Shown: positions 14,750 through 28,616 of the stretch, in pieces
Position numbering within the stretch: position 1 is the first letter of the stretch
Layout of the letters: each line of letters opens with the position of its first letter
NCBI RefSeq assembly: GCF_015354405.1
Contig: NZ_JADKYP010000022.1
Location: forward strand, 1 to 64,000
DNA from: Nocardia sp. BSTN01
GTDB lineage: Bacteria; Actinomycetota; Actinomycetes; Mycobacteriales; Mycobacteriaceae
Reading direction: 5' to 3'
Length of the DNA stretch: 64,000 bases
Notes under the pieces: generated by a model
What the model was told of the DNA's origin: nothing
Seen by the model: only the letters and a program-made list of their open reading frames with translations
Databases searched by the model: none
Program-made: the position numbers and the translations under genes

Positions 14750-15571
14750 CTACATCTGCGGCAGCGAATCTCCCTGCACCAGTTCGATATCCAGTTCGAT
14801 CTTCACCGTGGTGCCCACCGCGGCGACGCCGGCGCGGACGACGGCGTTGTAGTCGATCGCGAAATCGTTGCGGTGCAAATGGGTTTCGGCATGGAAGGCG
14901 GCCCGGACCCCACCCCACGGGTCGGGTCCCGAACCGCCGTAGGTCAGGTCCAGCTCCACCGGGCGGCGCTGACCGTGCAGCTCCAATTCACCGGGCATCA
15001 CCCAGGTATCGGCGCCGGTGCGCCGCAATCCGGTTCCGGTGAAGCCGATCAGCGGGTAGCTCTCGACATCGAGGAAGTCGGCCGAGCGCAGATGGTCGTC
15101 GCGCATCCCGATTCCGGTGTCGATGCTGGCCGCCTTGATCTCGGCGAATCCGGTTGTCTGCTCGAAGTTCCGGGCCACGTCCAGTCGGCCGCCCACCTCG
15201 GCGAATCGCGCCTTGATACTCGCGATACCGAGGTGGCGGGCGGTGGCCACGACCGTGGAGTGCACCGGGTCGATGGTCCACGGGCCGGGCGCCGGCGTGC
15301 CGACGGAGCTCGCCTCCGACTGCAATGCCACCGCACCCAATTGCCCACTGCCGGAAGCGGATATCCGCGCGATCTGCGCCACCGGCTGGTAGCCGGGGGC
15401 GGTCACCACCGCGGTGTGCATACCGGCGGGCAGCGGCTCGGTGGCCGCGGACCCGGTCTCGTCGGCCACCGCCCGGGCGAGCTGGCGACCGGTCAGATCG
15501 GTCACGGTCAGCAGCGCACCCGGCACCGGCCAGCCATCGGAATTGCGAACCTGTGCGGTCAAACCGCTCAT
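14750..15571 (-). CDS. YceI-family protein with N-terminal regulatory-type beta-sandwich domain
   Basis: The product is 273 residues. Residues 1-85 form a carboxypeptidase-regulatory-like (Cna-B-like) domain: LTAQVRNSDGWPVPGALLTVTD, then DETGSAATEPLPAG and a PGYQPVAQ turn. Residues 95-270 are a YceI lipocalin-like barrel: GPWTIDPVHSTVVATARH, then IGMRDDHLRSADFLDVESYPLI. YceI barrels bind isoprenoid or other amphipathic lipids. No signal peptide is visible, so it is probably cytoplasmic. The N-terminal domain resembles the three C-terminal repeats of the MFS exporter encoded immediately upstream, with which it shares an ATGA overlap. A joint role in handling an exported lipid-like substrate is inferred. 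Confidence 0.9.
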   Translation of the reverse strand: MSGLTAQVRNSDGWPVPGALLTVTDLTGRQLARAVADETGSAATEPLPAGMHTAVVTAPGYQPVAQIARISASGSGQLGAVALQSEASSVGTPAPGPWTIDPVHSTVVATARHLGIASIKARFAEVGGRLDVARNFEQTTGFAEIKAASIDTGIGMRDDHLRSADFLDVESYPLIGFTGTGLRRTGADTWVMPGELELHGQRRPVELDLTYGGSGPDPWGGVRAAFHAETHLHRNDFAIDYNAVVRAGVAAVGTTVKIELDIELVQGDSLPQM

Positions 15572-18267
15572 GACAGCTCCGTGTTCTGATCGACACCACT
15601 GGGTTCGACACCATTGTGCCGCACCCCGTTCCGTTCTCCGTTCGTCGCGGCACCGTTCGTGCCGGCGACTCCGGTGGGCTCGGCGGCCGGGCGAACACCC
15701 TCGTCACCGTCGTCGTAACCCAGCCGGACATCGTGCTCGACCTCGCCGCCGCCGACGGTGACCCGGCTGGTCACCGGCGGATAACCGCGCGCGACCACCG
15801 TGTACTCACCCTCGCTGAGGTCGGTCAGGACGTACTGGCCGTTCTCGTCGGTGCGGGTGGTCCCGATCGGGGTTCCGGAGCGATCGAGCACCGTGACCTC
15901 CGCGTCCAGCACCGCGCCGCCGTCGGCGAGCACGGTTCCGGTCAGCACCGCCATCGGCGAGAGCTCGATGTCGTGGTGCAGCAGGCCACTGTCGGGCACG
16001 ACCAGCGCGGTCGCGCTCGGGCGCATGTGTTCGGCCACCGCCACCAGGGTGTAGGTCCCCGAGACCACACCGTGGCAGAGGTAGTTGCCGGACGCGTCGG
16101 TGACGGCCGCGCCGACCACCTCGCCACGCAGATCGGTGAGGGTGACGGTCGCACCGGCCAGCGGCTGTCCGGCGACGGCGGTCCGGACCATACCCGACAG
16201 CTCGCCCGAGCCCTGCAGGGTCAGATCGAGGCGCTGGGTGCGTCCGTCGGCGGTGACATTCACCGCGGCCGGCTGGTGACCGTTCGCCGAGACGATCAGC
16301 ACGTAGCTACCCGCGCCGGGCGGCTCGATCGAATAGCGGCCGCCGCTGTCGCCGGCCGAACGCGAAACCTGGTGTCCGCGTTGGTCGATCAGTGTCAGCG
16401 CGGCGCCCGCGACCGGTCGGCCGTCGGCCCGCTGCACCTGCCCGCCGATGGCGTGGCCGCTGCCGTGGGAGTTGACGACAGGAGTGTTTGTCATCGCCGA
16501 AACCTCCGCAATTCGATGTGATTCGTGCCCGTTGGCCGCGGTGTGCCGACCTGCCGCCGCGGCGGCGAGAACCGGTTCGGGTTCGGAGAGCGCCTGGGCG
16601 GCACCCTCCCACACCTGGTTCTCGGCCCATTCGGCATCGGCCGCCTCGACCGGATCCTTCGGCGCCGGGGCGGGCGCCGATGCATCCTGCAGCGGAATCT
16701 CTTTCATGAACATCATGACGATGCAGGCCAGCAGGGCCACGCCCGCCGCGGCGTAGAACACGCCGTGCATCGAGTTGGTGAACCCGATCAGGATCGGATC
16801 CTTGATCTGCTGTGGCAGCGCGCCGATTCCGGCGGTGTTGGCCTGCAGCTGGTTCAGCTTGCCGGCGTCCAGTCCGGGCGGCAGATGACCGCCGAACGCG
16901 TCGGTGATCTTGTGCGGCAGCAGATTGAACAGAATCGTCAGGAACACCGCGACACCCAGCGTGCCGCCGACCTGGCGGAAGAAGGTCGCCGACGCCGTCG
17001 ACACACCCATATCCGACCGCGGACCGGCATTCTGCGCCGCGATGATCAACGTCTGCATACAGCAGCCCAGACCCAGCCCGACCAGCGCGCCGATCGCGAG
17101 CACCTGCCACATCGCGCTGTCGAAGTGCAGCTGCGCGTAGAGCAGCGCGCCCACGGTCACCAGGAAGGTGCCGACCACCGGCAGGATCTTGTAGCGGCCG
17201 GTGCGCTTGACGACCTGACCGGAGATCATCGACCCGATCATGATGCCCAGCACCAGCGGCAGCATCAGCAGACCCGCCTCGGTCGGCGAATAGCCGCGCA
17301 CCACCTGCAGATACAGCGGCACCATGCTGATCGCGCCGAACATCGCGATACCGACGATGAAGCCACCGATCATCACGACCGAGAAGGTGGAGTTCTTGAA
17401 CAGCCGCAGCGGAATCAGCGCGGAATCCTTCATCAGGTATTCCACCCCGATGAACAACACCAGGCCCACCGCGCCGATGGCGTAGCAGATCACCGAGTCG
17501 CTGGAACCCCAGCCCCAGGTGCGGCCCTGTTCGGCCACGATCAGCAACGGCACCACACAGATCGCCAGCGCGATCGCGCCCCACCAGTCGACGTTCAACT
17601 TCTGCCGCTGATGCGGGACGTTGAGCACCTTGGCCACGACCGCGAGCGCGACCACGCCGATCGGGACGTTCACCAGGAACACCCAGCGCCAGCCGTCGAT
17701 ACCCCACAGCGTGTCGTAATCGGAGAACAGGCCGCCCAGCACCGGGCCGAGCACGGTCGAGGTGCCGAAGACCATCATGAAATAGCCCTGGTAGCGGGCC
17801 CGTTCACGCGGCGGGACGATATCGCCGACGATCGTCATGGCCAGCGACATGAGGCCACCGGCGCCGAGACCCTGGAACGCGCGGAACGCCGCCAACTCAT
17901 ACATCGACGTCGCGAACGTACACGCCGCCGAACCCACCACGAAAATACCGATCGCCAACAGATAGAACGGCTTGCGACCATAGATATCGGCCAACTTGCC
18001 GTACAACGGCGTCGAAATCGTCGCCGTAATCAAATACGCCGTCGTCGCCCACGCCTGCTGATCGAAACCATGCAAACTATTCGCGATCCGGACAATCGCC
18101 ACACTCACAATATTCTGATCCAGCGCCGCCAAGAACATCCCCAGCAACAAACCGGACAAAATAGTCAAAATCTGCCGATGCGACAGAGACGGTCGCACAT
18201 CCGCTGTCGGCGCGACGGTCGGAGCGTTCGGCTGCGCCGGCGGAGCCTCACTGGTCGAAGTCGTCAT
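15568..18267 (-). CDS. DHA2 (EmrB/QacA-type) MFS exporter with three C-terminal regulatory-type repeats
   Basis: The product is 899 residues. Residues 30-530 are a 14-helix DHA2 exporter: LDQNIVSVAIVRIA (motif D1), GKLADIYGRKPF (motif A) and LGPVLGG (motif C). A 70-residue Ala/Pro/Glu-rich linker follows, then three repeats of about 80 residues (roughly 610-690, 690-773, 773-853), each with an ALTLIDQRGHQV-type strand, a D.G.Y turn and G.YTLVA. An Asn/Gly-rich tail ends the protein. Drug-type proton antiport is the family role. The repeats are usually extracytoplasmic, yet a 14-helix exporter should place its C-terminus inside. It lies 13 bp after a MarR gene. Residues 29-136 lie in a tract nearly identical to the paralogue at 26.1-28.6 kb. 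Confidence 0.92.
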   Translation of the reverse strand: MTTSTSEAPPAQPNAPTVAPTADVRPSLSHRQILTILSGLLLGMFLAALDQNIVSVAIVRIANSLHGFDQQAWATTAYLITATISTPLYGKLADIYGRKPFYLLAIGIFVVGSAACTFATSMYELAAFRAFQGLGAGGLMSLAMTIVGDIVPPRERARYQGYFMMVFGTSTVLGPVLGGLFSDYDTLWGIDGWRWVFLVNVPIGVVALAVVAKVLNVPHQRQKLNVDWWGAIALAICVVPLLIVAEQGRTWGWGSSDSVICYAIGAVGLVLFIGVEYLMKDSALIPLRLFKNSTFSVVMIGGFIVGIAMFGAISMVPLYLQVVRGYSPTEAGLLMLPLVLGIMIGSMISGQVVKRTGRYKILPVVGTFLVTVGALLYAQLHFDSAMWQVLAIGALVGLGLGCCMQTLIIAAQNAGPRSDMGVSTASATFFRQVGGTLGVAVFLTILFNLLPHKITDAFGGHLPPGLDAGKLNQLQANTAGIGALPQQIKDPILIGFTNSMHGVFYAAAGVALLACIVMMFMKEIPLQDASAPAPAPKDPVEAADAEWAENQVWEGAAQALSEPEPVLAAAAAGRHTAANGHESHRIAEVSAMTNTPVVNSHGSGHAIGGQVQRADGRPVAGAALTLIDQRGHQVSRSAGDSGGRYSIEPPGAGSYVLIVSANGHQPAAVNVTADGRTQRLDLTLQGSGELSGMVRTAVAGQPLAGATVTLTDLRGEVVGAAVTDASGNYLCHGVVSGTYTLVAVAEHMRPSATALVVPDSGLLHHDIELSPMAVLTGTVLADGGAVLDAEVTVLDRSGTPIGTTRTDENGQYVLTDLSEGEYTVVARGYPPVTSRVTVGGGEVEHDVRLGYDDGDEGVRPAAEPTGVAGTNGAATNGERNGVRHNGVEPSGVDQNTELS
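17861..18183. repeat. 323-bp tract shared with the second MFS gene (copy 1)
   Basis: This tract matches 28228-28550 in the same orientation with a single mismatch (G at 18001 versus A in the other copy), and identity falls sharply at both edges. It encodes the first transmembrane helices. Its codons are unusual for the window, with many TTG leucines, ATT isoleucines and GGT glycines where the flanks use C-ending codons. Recent gene conversion is the simplest explanation. Confidence 0.93.
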
Positions 18268-18280
18268 GTGTATGTAAGCC

Positions 18281-18862
18281 CTAATTCGATTCGGCTGTTG
18301 CAGTGGACTTTTCAGCTGTGGATTCCTCGATGCCGCTGACGAGCAGCTCGAGGAGATCGGTCAATCTGGCCCGTTCGTCGGCGGGCCACTCGGCCATCAC
18401 CTCGGCCAGCCAGCGGTTGCGGTTTCGGCGGTTCTCCTCGAAGACCCGCACCCCTTCGGCGGTGGGCGCCAGCACGCAGGCCCGTCCGTCCACGGGGTCG
18501 GCCCGGCGTTCCACCAGGCCGTGTGCCACCAGCGATCTGGTCTGCCTGCTGATGGTCGATGTTTCGGTATGCAAGGTGTCCGCGAGCTTCCCCGTCCGCT
18601 GCGGACCGTCGTGGACCAGGCAGAACAGCACGGAATAGGCCAATCGCTCCAGACCGTCCGGACCGTACTTGGCTATGTGCGATTTGGTTCTGCCGATCGC
18701 CCGCATCAACCGGATCAGCTGGCCGCCGAGTCGATCGGCCACATCCTGTTCGGTGACACCGGCGCTGTGTTCGATGCCGTGTTCGCCAGGGCCTACGTGG
18801 TTACGCAAGCTACCGCCTTCGGCCCCCGGGCTCACACGGGGATCACGGGCATCGACGACCAT
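18281..18862 (-). CDS. MarR-family regulator of the MFS-YceI operon
   Basis: The product is 193 residues. After about 40 variable residues comes a MarR core: helices LGGQLIRLMRAIGRTKSHI and LERLAYSVLFCLVHDG, the recognition region GKLADTLHTETSTISRQTRSLVAHGLVER, and the beta wing DPVDGRACVLAPTAEG. It most likely represses its own operon and is released by an exporter substrate. The ATG at 18862 has AAGGAAA upstream. An overlapping set of palindromes begins 40 bp upstream. It is separated from the exporter gene by only 13 bp. Confidence 0.9.
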   Translation of the reverse strand: MVVDARDPRVSPGAEGGSLRNHVGPGEHGIEHSAGVTEQDVADRLGGQLIRLMRAIGRTKSHIAKYGPDGLERLAYSVLFCLVHDGPQRTGKLADTLHTETSTISRQTRSLVAHGLVERRADPVDGRACVLAPTAEGVRVFEENRRNRNRWLAEVMAEWPADERARLTDLLELLVSGIEESTAEKSTATAESN

Positions 18863-18901: not shown

Positions 18902-18934
18902 ATGTACAACTAGTTGCTGAGGCCAACTATACAT
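18902..18934. promoter_or_regulatory. Nested palindromic operator for the MarR regulator
   Basis: The 33-bp element contains the perfect palindrome CAACTAGTTG (18907-18916), a second inverted repeat TAGTTG-N7-CAACTA (18911-18929), and outer arms ATGTA / TACAT. It lies 40-72 bp upstream of the MarR start and 164 bp before the divergent transglycosylase-like gene. Spaced half-sites like these are typical MarR targets. Confidence 0.65.
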
Positions 18935-25617: not shown

Positions 25618-26109
25618 ATGACGCTTCATATCACCGACTGGTTGATGACCAGCGATGTCACCCCGGAATCTGCCCAGCGCCTGCCGTCACTTCCCGGACG
25701 ATGGCTGCTGAGCTGGCTGCCCGGCGAGCTTCTGACCCAGGAACAGGCGCTGAGCGGCATGATCCTGGACGAGATCCTGTCCGATCCGGCTTTCGTGGAC
25801 GACCTGGGGGCCGTCGAGATGGCCACCCTGCACGCCGCCGAACTCGGCATCCCCCTGGACGAGGCGGTGATCCGGCTGTGCGCCCGGGTCCTCGAGCGGA
25901 CAGCCCTGCGATCCGGCGATATCGGGCCGGACGACATCGAACCCGGCGACATCGAGCCCGGGGATATCGGGCCGGGTGACACGGGGGCGAACAGCACCGA
26001 ATACGGCCCGGTCCGAGGCCACCCGCACCTCCCGCAGGTCCACCGCACTCCGGTGTCGCTGCACCGGCCGCGGCATACCGATCACGATCTGTCGGCCGCG
26101 CCGTCGTAG
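25618..26109 (+). CDS. Unknown 163-residue protein with pentapeptide-like tandem repeat
   Basis: No known domain was recognised. Residues 1-95 look like a compact helical domain (LPGRWLLSWLPGELLTQEQALSG, DDLGAVEMATLHAAELG, DEAVIRLCARVLERTAL). Residues 100-124 are five tandem 5-residue units of the form GDIGP, and the last 40 residues are His/Pro-rich. It has a very strong ribosome-binding site (GGAAGGGGA) and a long regulated promoter region shared divergently with the XRE operon. The C-terminal part overlaps the convergent MFS gene by 28 bp. It may be a partner or target of that operon; the function is unknown. Confidence 0.72.
   Translation: MTLHITDWLMTSDVTPESAQRLPSLPGRWLLSWLPGELLTQEQALSGMILDEILSDPAFVDDLGAVEMATLHAAELGIPLDEAVIRLCARVLERTALRSGDIGPDDIEPGDIEPGDIGPGDTGANSTEYGPVRGHPHLPQVHRTPVSLHRPRHTDHDLSAAPS
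25915..25989 (+). repeat. Tandem 15-bp coding repeat (GDIGP-type units)
   Basis: Five consecutive 15-bp units encode GDIGP, DDIEP, GDIEP, GDIGP and GDTGA. Units differ by synonymous and a few replacement changes. Such an array can change copy number by slippage and probably encodes a flexible acidic linker. Confidence 0.85.
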
Positions 26110-28616
26110 CAGAGCCGCAGGTCGTGGGCGATCTGTTCGCCGTCGACCGCCACCAGCGCACTGGCCGGCGGATAGCCGCGACCCACCACCGTGTAGTCCC
26201 CGGCGGGGAGGTCGTCGATCCGGTAGCGGCCGTCCCCGTCCGTCAACGCGGCGGCCACCACCGCGCCACCCGAATCCAGCACCGTCACGTGGGCGTGAGC
26301 GACCGGACCGCGCTCCGAGCGCACCCGGCCCGACAGCACCGCCGTCGGCGCGAGTTCGATGTCGTAGCGCAACATGCCGGTCTCGGGAACGGTCAACGTG
26401 GTGGCATCCGGCCTGCGATGTCCGGCGACCGCGACCAGGGTGTAGGTGCCGGCGACGATGCCGTGACAGGCGTAGGCGCCGTCGGCTCCGGTCACCGCCG
26501 CACCGACGACCTCGCCGCGCCGATCGGTCAGGGTGACGGTCACGCCCGCGAGTGGCCGGCCCGGCCCCTCGGTGACGATGCCGGACAGCTCCCCCGACCC
26601 CAGCAAGGTGAGATCGACCGTCTGGGGTTCGGAACCGATCGCGACGTTCACCGCGGCGGGCTGATATCCCTCGGCGGAAACGATCAGCACATAGTTACCG
26701 GCGTCCGGCACGCTCAGGCGGTAGCCGCCCGCGCCGTCGGTCGTCGCGCGCGAAACCTGGTGTCCCCGTTGGTCGATCAGTGTCAGCGCCGCACCGGGTA
26801 TGGATTGCCCGTCTTCGCGGTGGATGTGTCCGGACACAGGCGCGTCGCCGACGGCCTCCGGAAACGGGGTGTGCGTGGCCGGTTCGGCAAGGACCGGCGC
26901 CGATTCCGTCCGGGCGGCGTCGCCGTCGGCCTCCCACGACGGCTCCGGCTCCCAGGGTTCGAGCGCCGACTCGGCGGCTTCGACGTCGGCCACGGTCCGC
27001 TCTTTCTGCGACGGTTCGGCGCGCTGCGGCTGCGCCGGCGGTGCCGAACTGTCCTGCAGCGGAATCTCTTTCATGAACAGCAGCACCACACAGGCCAGCA
27101 GCGCCACGCCGGCGGCGGCGTAGAACACGCCGTGCAGGGAGTCGGTGAAGCCGATCAGAATGGGATCGCGCACCTGCGCCGGCAGTGCCGCGATCCCACT
27201 GGTGTTCGACTGCAGCTGATCGAGCTTCCCGGTGTCGAAGCCGGGCGGCAGCACACCGCCGAACGCGTCGATGATCTTGTGCGGCAACAGATTGAACAGA
27301 ATCGTCAGGAACACCGCGACACCCAGCGTGCCGCCCATCTGCCGGAAGAAGGTCGCCGACGCCGTCGACACACCCATATCCGACCGCGGACCGGCATTCT
27401 GCGCCGCGATGATCAACGTCTGCATACAGCCACCGAGTCCGAAGCCGATGACCGCGCTGTACACCAGCGGCTGCCACAGCGGGCTGTCGTAGTGCACCTG
27501 CGCGTACAGCGCCGCCCCGCATGCGATGACGAAGGTGCCCAGCACGGGCAGGATCTTGTAGCGGCCGGTCAATTTGGTGACCTGCCCCGCGATCAGCGAG
27601 CCGATCATGATGCCCAGCACCAGCGGCAGCATCAACAGACCCGCCTTGGTCGGCGAATAGCCCCGCACGACTTGCAGATACAGCGGCACCATACTGATCG
27701 CGCCGAACATCGCGATACCGACGATGAAGCCGCCCAGGATGGTGACGGAGAACGTCGAATTCCGGAACAGCCGCAGCGGAATCAGCGCGGCATCCTTCAT
27801 CAGAAATTCCACGAGGACGAACAGCAGCAGCCCGACCGCACCGATGCCGTAGCAGAGCAGCGCGCGCGATGACTCCCAGCCCCAGCCGCGGCCCTGCTCG
27901 GCCACGATCAGCAACGGCACCACACAGATCGCCAGCGCGATCGCACCGAACCAGTCCACGCGATGCCGCTGCCGTTCGTGCGGCACGTTGAGCACCTTCG
28001 CGACCACGGCCAACGCGAGCACGCCGATCGGGACGTTCACCAGGAACACCCAGCGCCAGCCGTCGATACCCCACAGCGTGTCGTAATCGGAGAAGAAGCC
28101 GCCGAGCACCGGGCCGGCGACCGTCGCGGTGCCGAACACCATCATGAAATAGCCCTGATACCGCACGCGTTCGCGGGCGGGCACGATATCCCCGATGATG
28201 GTGAACGCCAAGGACATCAGGCCCCCCGCGCCGAGACCCTGGAACGCGCGGAACGCCGCCAACTCATACATCGACGTCGCGAACGTACACGCCGCCGAAC
28301 CCACCACGAAAATACCGATCGCCAACAGATAGAACGGCTTGCGACCATAGATATCGGCCAACTTGCCATACAACGGCGTCGAAATCGTCGCCGTAATCAA
28401 ATACGCCGTCGTCGCCCACGCCTGCTGATCGAAACCATGCAAACTATTCGCGATCCGGACAATCGCCACACTCACAATATTCTGATCCAGCGCCGCCAAG
28501 AACATCCCCAGCAACAAACCGGACAAAATAGTCAAAATCTGCCGATGCGAGAGCGTGCTCGGCGCGGGGCCCGGGGCCGACTGCGCCGCCGGCTCCCGGG
28601 TGGTCGAAGTGGTCAT
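26082..28616 (-). CDS. Second DHA2 MFS exporter with three C-terminal regulatory-type repeats
   Basis: The product is 844 residues and a paralogue of the exporter at 15.6-18.3 kb, with the same layout: 14-helix DHA2 transporter (LDQNIVSVAIVRIA, GKLADIYGRKPF), an Ala/Glu-rich linker of about 70 residues, then three beta-sandwich repeats (about 600-680, 680-762, 763-838). It lacks the Asn/Gly-rich tail. No MarR or YceI gene adjoins it; it lies 86 bp downstream of a DUF72 gene on the same strand. The start ATG is preceded by GGGAAA. Residues 23-130 lie in the near-identical tract. Duplicate exporters with retained repeats suggest the repeats matter. Confidence 0.92.
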   Translation of the reverse strand: MTTSTTREPAAQSAPGPAPSTLSHRQILTILSGLLLGMFLAALDQNIVSVAIVRIANSLHGFDQQAWATTAYLITATISTPLYGKLADIYGRKPFYLLAIGIFVVGSAACTFATSMYELAAFRAFQGLGAGGLMSLAFTIIGDIVPARERVRYQGYFMMVFGTATVAGPVLGGFFSDYDTLWGIDGWRWVFLVNVPIGVLALAVVAKVLNVPHERQRHRVDWFGAIALAICVVPLLIVAEQGRGWGWESSRALLCYGIGAVGLLLFVLVEFLMKDAALIPLRLFRNSTFSVTILGGFIVGIAMFGAISMVPLYLQVVRGYSPTKAGLLMLPLVLGIMIGSLIAGQVTKLTGRYKILPVLGTFVIACGAALYAQVHYDSPLWQPLVYSAVIGFGLGGCMQTLIIAAQNAGPRSDMGVSTASATFFRQMGGTLGVAVFLTILFNLLPHKIIDAFGGVLPPGFDTGKLDQLQSNTSGIAALPAQVRDPILIGFTDSLHGVFYAAAGVALLACVVLLFMKEIPLQDSSAPPAQPQRAEPSQKERTVADVEAAESALEPWEPEPSWEADGDAARTESAPVLAEPATHTPFPEAVGDAPVSGHIHREDGQSIPGAALTLIDQRGHQVSRATTDGAGGYRLSVPDAGNYVLIVSAEGYQPAAVNVAIGSEPQTVDLTLLGSGELSGIVTEGPGRPLAGVTVTLTDRRGEVVGAAVTGADGAYACHGIVAGTYTLVAVAGHRRPDATTLTVPETGMLRYDIELAPTAVLSGRVRSERGPVAHAHVTVLDSGGAVVAAALTDGDGRYRIDDLPAGDYTVVGRGYPPASALVAVDGEQIAHDLRLCYDGAADRS
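28228..28550. repeat. 323-bp tract shared with the first MFS gene (copy 2)
   Basis: It is identical to 17861-18183 apart from one transition. A second, shorter shared block lies around 27340-27429 and matches about 16970-17062, over a segment near transmembrane helix 11. The patchwork of near-identity within otherwise diverged genes indicates gene conversion between the paralogues. Confidence 0.93.

Follow-up and report, generated by a model that had tools for sequence, protein, structure and literature searches.

A three-gene locus of Nocardia sp. BSTN01 encodes a drug-type exporter and a lipocalin-like protein that share a regulatory-type domain, and this shared domain may be the plug that couples the pump and the binding protein. 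The locus lies in the window, i.e., the whole stretch of DNA of 64,000 nucleotides that was analyzed (assembly GCF_015354405.1, contig NZ_JADKYP010000022.1, positions 1-64,000; all coordinates refer to this window). Its genes encode a MarR-family regulator, a DHA2 (EmrB/QacA-type) exporter of the major facilitator superfamily (MFS) with three C-terminal transthyretin-like CarboxypepD_reg domains (PF13620, abbreviated REP), and a fusion of one REP with a YceI lipocalin-like domain (REP-YceI). The explanation that we favor, at a probability of roughly 0.5, is a pump that would be induced by antibiotics and whose REP module, inside the cell, would dock a cytosolic lipocalin. A functional pairing of the threefold module (3-REP) with REP-YceI is very probable in the light of sequence comparisons, a physical docking of the two is slightly favored, and the idea that REP-YceI captures or hands over the pump substrate seems plausible at somewhat less than even odds. 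The initial annotation, which had noticed the shared domain, was right in its observation, the puzzle of location that it raised has a solution at the level of prediction, and evolutionary evidence supports a functional link of the shared domain well. The features of the locus are as follows.

18281..18862, minus strand: MarR-family regulator, 193 amino acids (open reading frame; Pfam MarR, E 1.1e-12)
15568..18267, minus strand: DHA2 (EmrB/QacA-type) exporter with three C-terminal REP domains, 899 amino acids (open reading frame, Pfam, TIGR00711, AlphaFold2)
16699..18186, minus strand: 14-helix membrane core, residues 28-523 (AlphaFold2; motif A from residue 90)
16459..16680, minus strand: disordered linker, residues 530-603 (predicted local distance difference test, pLDDT, <50; exchanged cores show their identity jump where it ends, near residue 600)
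16213..16449, minus strand: REP 1, GxQ type (DQRGHQVSR; G631, Q633; PF13620)
15961..16200, minus strand: REP 2 (PF13620)
15724..15945, minus strand: REP 3 (PF13620)
14750..15571, minus strand: REP-YceI fusion, 273 amino acids, no signal peptide (open reading frame, Pfam, AlphaFold2)
15347..15562, minus strand: REP of REP-YceI, GxQ type (G28, Q30; PF13620)
14780..15280, minus strand: YceI lipocalin-like domain, residues 98-264 (Pfam; Foldseek matches 1wub, 1y0g, 7bwl)
15568..15571, minus strand: 4-base stop/start overlap (ATGA) of the exporter and REP-YceI genes (sequence)

On the minus strand the order is marR, exporter, REP-YceI; a gap of 13 bases separates the first two genes, and the three apparently form an operon. 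The exporter and fusion reading frames were found exactly where the initial annotation had placed them (Pfam, list of open reading frames), and the MarR gene that it had put ahead of both is present just beyond its interval of 14750..18267. The repeats had been described as being of the carboxypeptidase-regulatory/Cna-B kind. The first part of this description holds, since CarboxypepD_reg is the best family, while the second is loose: the SdrD_B and SpaA models score lower, yet they pass their own cut-offs. In the exporter, MFS_1 is matched with an E value of 8.8e-61 and three CarboxypepD_reg stretches with 130.6 bits (cut-off 32.3), and the efflux_EmrB model TIGR00711 is passed with 259.3 bits (cut-off 230.2). 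The fusion protein matches CarboxypepD_reg with 40.3 bits (cut-off 32.3) and YceI (PF04264) with 131.9 bits (cut-off 23.7); its closest named relative, with 91% identity, is from Nocardia veterana. Of the 19 PF13620 matches in the 7.8-Mb assembly, REP-YceI accounts for one and six MFS exporters, at three apiece, account for the other 18; therefore, the sharing of the repeat is not a chance event.

AlphaFold2, which was applied to monomers only, gave an exporter model (built from 19 sequences) with a mean pLDDT of 77, in which 14 long helices are followed by the linker (residues 530-603), an all-beta region of three domains (604-852), and a disordered tail. The solved or structural relatives of the core are EmrB, which is the top match in structure and sequence, EfpA, the Rv1410 homologue 8pnl, and QacA. 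The model of REP-YceI has a mean pLDDT of 87. Foldseek matched its barrel to TT1927b (1wub), E. coli YceI (1y0g), the Pseudomonas antibiotic sequester 7bwl, and BcnA/BcnB; weaker matches of the N-terminal part were to the transthyretin-like domain of carboxypeptidase D, 5aq0 (E 1.4e-3), and to the carboxypeptidases 2nsm and 1qmu. A regulatory-type fold, as had been proposed, was thus obtained with AlphaFold2 and Foldseek for the all-beta C-terminus of the exporter as well as for the REP of REP-YceI.

Co-inheritance of 3-REP and REP-YceI

The expectation that the exporters of relatives carry the repeats beside REP-YceI was borne out in 67 of 80 named loci (the best 80 of at least 590 REP-YceI similarity matches), in which a 3-REP exporter lies directly upstream with a median gap of 92 nt. 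The loci are from Nocardia, Streptomyces, Amycolatopsis, Actinomadura, Pseudonocardia, and other genera. The order MarR, 3-REP exporter, REP-YceI is found in 58 of them, and nine contain exporter and REP-YceI with no MarR gene just upstream. The remainder comprises three loci in which a contig end truncates the 3-REP part, two with a 3-REP protein without a pump, one with MarR and REP-YceI only, and seven with REP-YceI alone. Free 3-REP proteins are encoded directly upstream of REP-YceI at L082, L092, L093, L101, and L248, and at L095 the order is pump with 3-REP, free 3-REP, REP-YceI. In four genomes of the genus g30 (L084, L085, L108, L109) a MarR gene directly precedes REP-YceI with no pump between them, and pump-size multi-REP proteins are encoded elsewhere in these genomes.

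Co-occurrence was analyzed in 298 genomes of the order, with multi-REP matches accepted at E values up to 1e-25 and REP-YceI regarded as full-length when the match started at residue 12 or earlier. Full-length REP-YceI is present in 40 genomes, 39 of which also have a multi-REP match (Fisher p 8e-36, uncorrected for descent). The exception, G274, has only a REP-YceI of the stand-alone kind described below; in addition, G135 combines a partial REP-YceI match with the lack of any multi-REP match. When 396 genomes were drawn from the phylum, two-domain REP-YceI matches (E up to 1e-38) were confined to the class of the window.

The pairing of 3-REP with REP-YceI is best supported, on sequence grounds, by the exchange of pump cores. 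Four Nocardia loci (L073, L074, L189, L190) are 82% identical to the window in the YceI domain and 63-67% in 3-REP, versus only 37-38% in the core and 32-35% in MarR. Two loci with a window-type core (L075, L186) have 82% identity in the core and 68-71% in MarR. In sliding comparisons, identity jumps where the linker ends, near residue 600, sharply in L073 and L068 and less so in L189. Relative to the window pump, two other exporters of the Nocardia sp. BSTN01 genome have 29% core and 68% 3-REP identity (L068) and 29% and 62% (L069). Trees of 25 operons were calculated with a quick method, and a group of six Nocardia operons was picked for comparison after the identities were known. In the core tree, which has long branches (L252, L089), L073, L189, and L190 group with cores of Streptomyces, Saccharopolyspora, and Pseudonocardia, apart from the window core, and a single clade of the six Nocardia cores is rejected (approximately unbiased test, p 3e-5). 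The same six form one clade in the 3-REP tree (Shimodaira-Hasegawa-like approximate likelihood ratio test, 100) and in the REP-YceI tree (99.9). At least four core lineages are found ahead of REP-YceI. The proposal that the three genes make up one conserved system is therefore upheld in part, in that the linkage is kept, and 3-REP tracks REP-YceI although pump core and MarR differ.

The first repeat of the pump and the REP of REP-YceI also share a subtype. In counts over related rows, and with a signature that was spotted after the alignment had been viewed, the glutamine (Q) of DxxGxQxxR is present in 45/47 first repeats of 3-REP exporters and in none of the 47 second or 47 third repeats; G631 and Q633 of REP 1 are invariant in the 19 exporters aligned. 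REP-YceI proteins have it in 43/56 cases, namely, 40/41 of the operon kind and 3/15 of the stand-alone kind, and the first-repeat profile scores best for 41/41 and 2/15 of them, respectively. Further carriers are the first (3/3) and second (1/3) repeats of two-REP MFS proteins, single-REP MFS proteins (6/7), first repeats of free 3-REP proteins (8/9, versus 0/18 for their other repeats), and REP domains on ABC2 (2/2), DUF1275 (2/2), RND (1/1), and FUSC (1/1) proteins. It is rare or missing in free two-REP proteins (0/2), other single-REP open reading frames (0/14, mostly DUF1416-like, although L119 4212 and L127 4092, filed under that label, are single-REP proteins of another sort), secreted (1/9), and anchored proteins (0/4). 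The count left out the duplicates L001, L165, and L166 as well as L156, L158, and L162. Another profile scores best for one of the two ABC2 domains and one of the seven single MFS domains. The subtype argument rests on the signature and the profile scores, because a tree of 104 REP domains has poor resolution, with 51 of its 101 inner branches open.

These results bear on the possibility that REP is a passive, portable cassette that merely stabilizes or solubilizes its carrier and shares the operon with REP-YceI by history. PF13620 is indeed a common domain family, present in 11 of 14 well-known control genomes, and tagged exporters without REP-YceI also agree with such a role. However, the common subtype of operon-type REP-YceI and first repeats, the linkage across many genera, and the co-inheritance through core exchange make this explanation improbable.

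Predicted side of the membrane

The initial annotation regarded the repeats as being on an unexpected side, because such domains are normally found outside the cell. This is not borne out. The exporter has 14 helices, motif A lies in the loop between transmembrane helices 2 and 3, and inner loops contain 15 lysines plus arginines versus 8 in outer loops; therefore, its N and C termini are predicted to be cytosolic. A hydrophobic stretch ahead of REP is absent from the window protein and from all 138 REP-YceI open reading frames inspected (near-duplicates included), and REP-YceI is likewise predicted to be cytosolic. With the exporter C-terminus predicted inside and no signal peptide on REP-YceI, the paradox of sidedness disappears. 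The window proteins lack the secretion signal and the predicted outside exposure expected of Cna-B/surface repeat proteins, and REP-YceI lacks the signal peptide of BcnA-type secreted lipocalins. Repeats that meet an exported YceI protein outside the cell would match the frequency of the fold in surface proteins (SdrD and TIE are among the matches), but the predicted pump topology and the lack of signal peptides led us to reject this arrangement, the chance of which is close to negligible.

REP proteins with a single helix are encoded at L244 (Actinocatenispora), L114 (G188), and L135 (G247), and arginines just after the helix suggest that their REP is also inside the cell. A contrasting case is the BPD_transp_2 (LivH-like) permease of L136 3061-4506: it begins with what resembles a signal peptide, and its REP is N-terminal, lacks the GxQ subtype, and is apparently outside.

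A putative operator and the probable Streptomyces counterpart

A candidate binding site for the regulator precedes the marR gene.

18914..18926, minus strand: putative MarR operator TTG-N7-CAA upstream of marR (half-sites and spacing as in the SAV4189 site TTGCCYKHRSCAA)

Three further TTG-N7-CAA motifs occur elsewhere in the window. In 105 marR upstream regions, many of them related and some from marR genes outside the operon, the motif was found 213 times versus 3.4 expected from mononucleotide shuffling, and the strict site TTGCCYKHRSCAA was present in 56/105, chiefly in Streptomyces. Most Streptomyces operons have one to three strict sites and two or three TTG-N7-CAA motifs ahead of marR. 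In some of the 105 regions, e.g., L073 and L074, the motif is absent.

According to PMC6036246, the MarR protein SAV4189 of S. avermitilis represses its own operon, in which it is cotranscribed with the MFS efflux gene sav_4190, and binds three 13-bp palindromes with the consensus TTGCCYKHRSCAA in its own promoter region. The same article describes that SAV4189 is released by hygromycin B and thiostrepton and not by kanamycin, apramycin, oligomycin, or avermectin B1 (PMC6036246). The sav_4190 deletion reported there spanned +104 to +2446 (PMC6036246), so that the gene probably exceeds an ordinary MFS gene in length. Judged from deletion size, gene order, and operator, SAV4190 is probably a 3-REP exporter, and the Streptomyces MarR-pump pair has thus probably already been published as SAV4189/SAV4190. 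As far as the published description goes, the window resembles this pair in having marR ahead of the pump and TTG-N7-CAA upstream of marR; it differs in sequence, with about 36-42% identity of the pump core and 25-34% of MarR to the counterparts of Streptomyces operons. The main text of PMC6036246 mentions neither YceI nor sav_4191, nor does it contain the term "carboxypeptidase". By title and start of abstract in open-licence PMC text, no published link of CarboxypepD_reg or YceI with an actinobacterial MFS exporter was found, except for the MarR-MFS pair of that article. A YceI gene belongs to a sulfonamide-degradation cluster in PMC6868719, where the text available has no carboxypeptidase term, and nfa56470 of Nocardia farcinica (PMC12727967) could not be tied to the 3-REP exporter family from the part of the article available.

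Candidate roles of REP and comparison with known systems

The mechanism that we propose would start with MarR, which would repress the operon via TTG-N7-CAA sites until a toxic compound lifts repression. The DHA2 pump would hold three transthyretin-like domains in the cytosol via a disordered linker about 70 residues long, and the third gene would supply a cytosolic YceI lipocalin whose REP has the subtype of the first repeat of the pump. The REP domains would bring the lipocalin to the pump, so that 3-REP and REP-YceI act as a pair. From the cytosol or the inner leaflet, the lipocalin would capture a hydrophobic compound (a drug or a prenyl lipid), which it would either pass to the pump or keep off its target.

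Several observations weigh against this mechanism. The window operator reads TTGGCCTCAGCAA and thus departs from the strict SAV4189 site TTGCCYKHRSCAA, and the window MarR shares merely the above 25-34% identity with its Streptomyces relatives. Hygromycin B, which is one of the two published inducers, is hydrophilic and ill-suited to a greasy pocket. The exchange of cores demonstrates the portability of the module and does not reveal its binding partner. A stand-alone group of REP-YceI (15/56 rows; L097, L098, L100, L102-L105, L107, L177-L183) is encoded away from pumps and mostly lacks the subtype. Multi-REP matches without full-length REP-YceI occur in 14/53 genomes, including Nocardia G060, although in seven of the 14 the match spans only about two repeats; a strict dependence of the pump on YceI is ruled out by G060 and the 13 other genomes. 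In the Nocardia sp. BSTN01 genome itself, five of six 3-REP exporters have no adjoining REP-YceI, and thus the tag does not solely serve YceI. Because some tagged exporters lack REP-YceI, the tag must also serve other partners or functions. Finally, the drug-capturing YceI relatives are secreted proteins, as far as the available text of PMC5350466 describes them.

One of these five exporters is encoded in the window.

26082..28616, minus strand: second 3-REP exporter, 86% identical to the first in the core and 59% in 3-REP, no REP-YceI adjoining

A TTG-N7-CAA operator was looked for upstream of this gene (28616) and was not found. Many stand-alone REP-YceI proteins have a short basic N-terminus (e.g., MFGRLLRRDGR in L100), which could touch the membrane.

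An alternative is that a lipid, prenyl or acyl, is delivered by cytosolic REP-YceI and transported across the membrane by the pump, and that antibiotics induce the operon by disturbing the cell. The closest YceI structure, the polyisoprenoid-binding TT1927b (36% over the domain), agrees with this, as do solved relatives of the pump such as EfpA, whose structure contains lipids, and an Rv1410-kind triacylglyceride transporter. On the other hand, the inducers of the probable Streptomyces counterpart, as published, are hygromycin B and thiostrepton, the best-scoring NCBIfam models for the pump, OtrB and Tcr3, represent oxytetracycline/tetracycline pumps (though both score far under their own cut-offs), and differing pump cores with one conserved YceI fit a single specific lipid poorly. 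Lipid transport as the actual function is thus unlikely.

REP occurs on other membrane proteins as well. PF13620 matched 94 proteins, which were sorted by hand, in 16 genomes (that of the window and 15 others, 14 of which had been chosen for having REP-YceI, so that proportions are biased); REP as a marker of this operon alone is ruled out by these proteins. They comprise 35 MFS proteins, 5 other membrane proteins (two ABC2, one RND, one FUSC, one DUF1275), 19 REP-YceI, 9 free two- or three-REP proteins, 2 single-pass anchored, 12 DUF1416-like, 7 exported or surface, and 3 dioxygenase-like proteins, and 2 others; DUF1416-like, dioxygenase-like, and exported are tentative labels that we assigned by eye. 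In the 15 genomes, C-terminal REP domains were found, besides those on many MFS proteins, on an AcrB/MMPL-type RND protein (L116), a FUSC protein (L145), two ABC2-type proteins (L125, its ABC2 match below the cut-off, and L130), and two DUF1275 proteins of L093, the second of which is under the PF13620 threshold and was recovered by a purpose-built profile. The adjoining genes of L093 823-7067 encode MFS-REP, two DUF1275-REP, a free 3-REP, and REP-YceI, and thus form an island of REP proteins. Near free or membrane-anchored 3-REP proteins there are genes that we take to be Roadblock-like (L129 222-2869, L244 4029-4457), the former presumably within a whole conservon, by its appearance.

A common scaffold would suit this spread over RND, FUSC, ABC2, and DUF1275 proteins and the single-pass proteins of L114, L135, and L244. 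REP might gate or oligomerize the pump or gather exporters at a single site of the membrane, and REP-YceI might be a sensor that switches them on when its pocket is filled, without any hand-over of cargo. Gating by such domains was not seen here, and sequence does not separate gating from docking; we consider this role doubtful. Tentatively, and at clearly less than even odds, the docking mechanism could be widened to a universal cytosolic exporter socket of actinobacteria, attached at the inner C-terminus to pumps of at least five unrelated membrane families, swapped as a cassette between cores, present also on free or anchored scaffolds, and read by a cytosolic lipocalin that brings cargo to any pump with such a socket.

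MFS drug pumps are usually treated as taking their substrate from the membrane unaided. If the proposed docking is true, substrate supply to pumps would be organized inside the cell, through a conserved partner in the cytosol that has a hydrophobic pocket and is attached by a portable domain occurring on several types of membrane protein, in a class of bacteria to which both antibiotic producers and opportunistic pathogens belong. REP would also be a search handle for exporters.

Parts of this arrangement are known from other systems. The YceI fold, recovered as a structural match, is common to the window protein and the antibiotic-binding lipocalins BcnA/BcnB; according to the text available, BcnA is secreted and acts outside (PMC5350466), whereas REP-YceI is predicted to be cytosolic and is fused to REP. 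TT1927b of Thermus, the best match of the YceI domain, differs in that its matched chain of 178 residues has no REP. EmrAB-TolC of E. coli resembles the window operon in its pump, since EmrB is the top match, and in the MarR-type regulator ahead of it, which in E. coli is EmrR; however, EmrAB has an EmrA-type adaptor, while the partner in the window operon is a cytosolic lipocalin. A DHA2 pump encoded together with a partner that has a hydrophobic pocket is also found in mycobacterial Rv1410-LprG, and the Rv1410-kind structure 8pnl is among the matches of the core. The lipid exporter Rv1410 pairs with LprG, which is a lipoprotein outside the membrane, and this system is without REP, in contrast to the window operon, in which both the pump and the YceI protein carry it.

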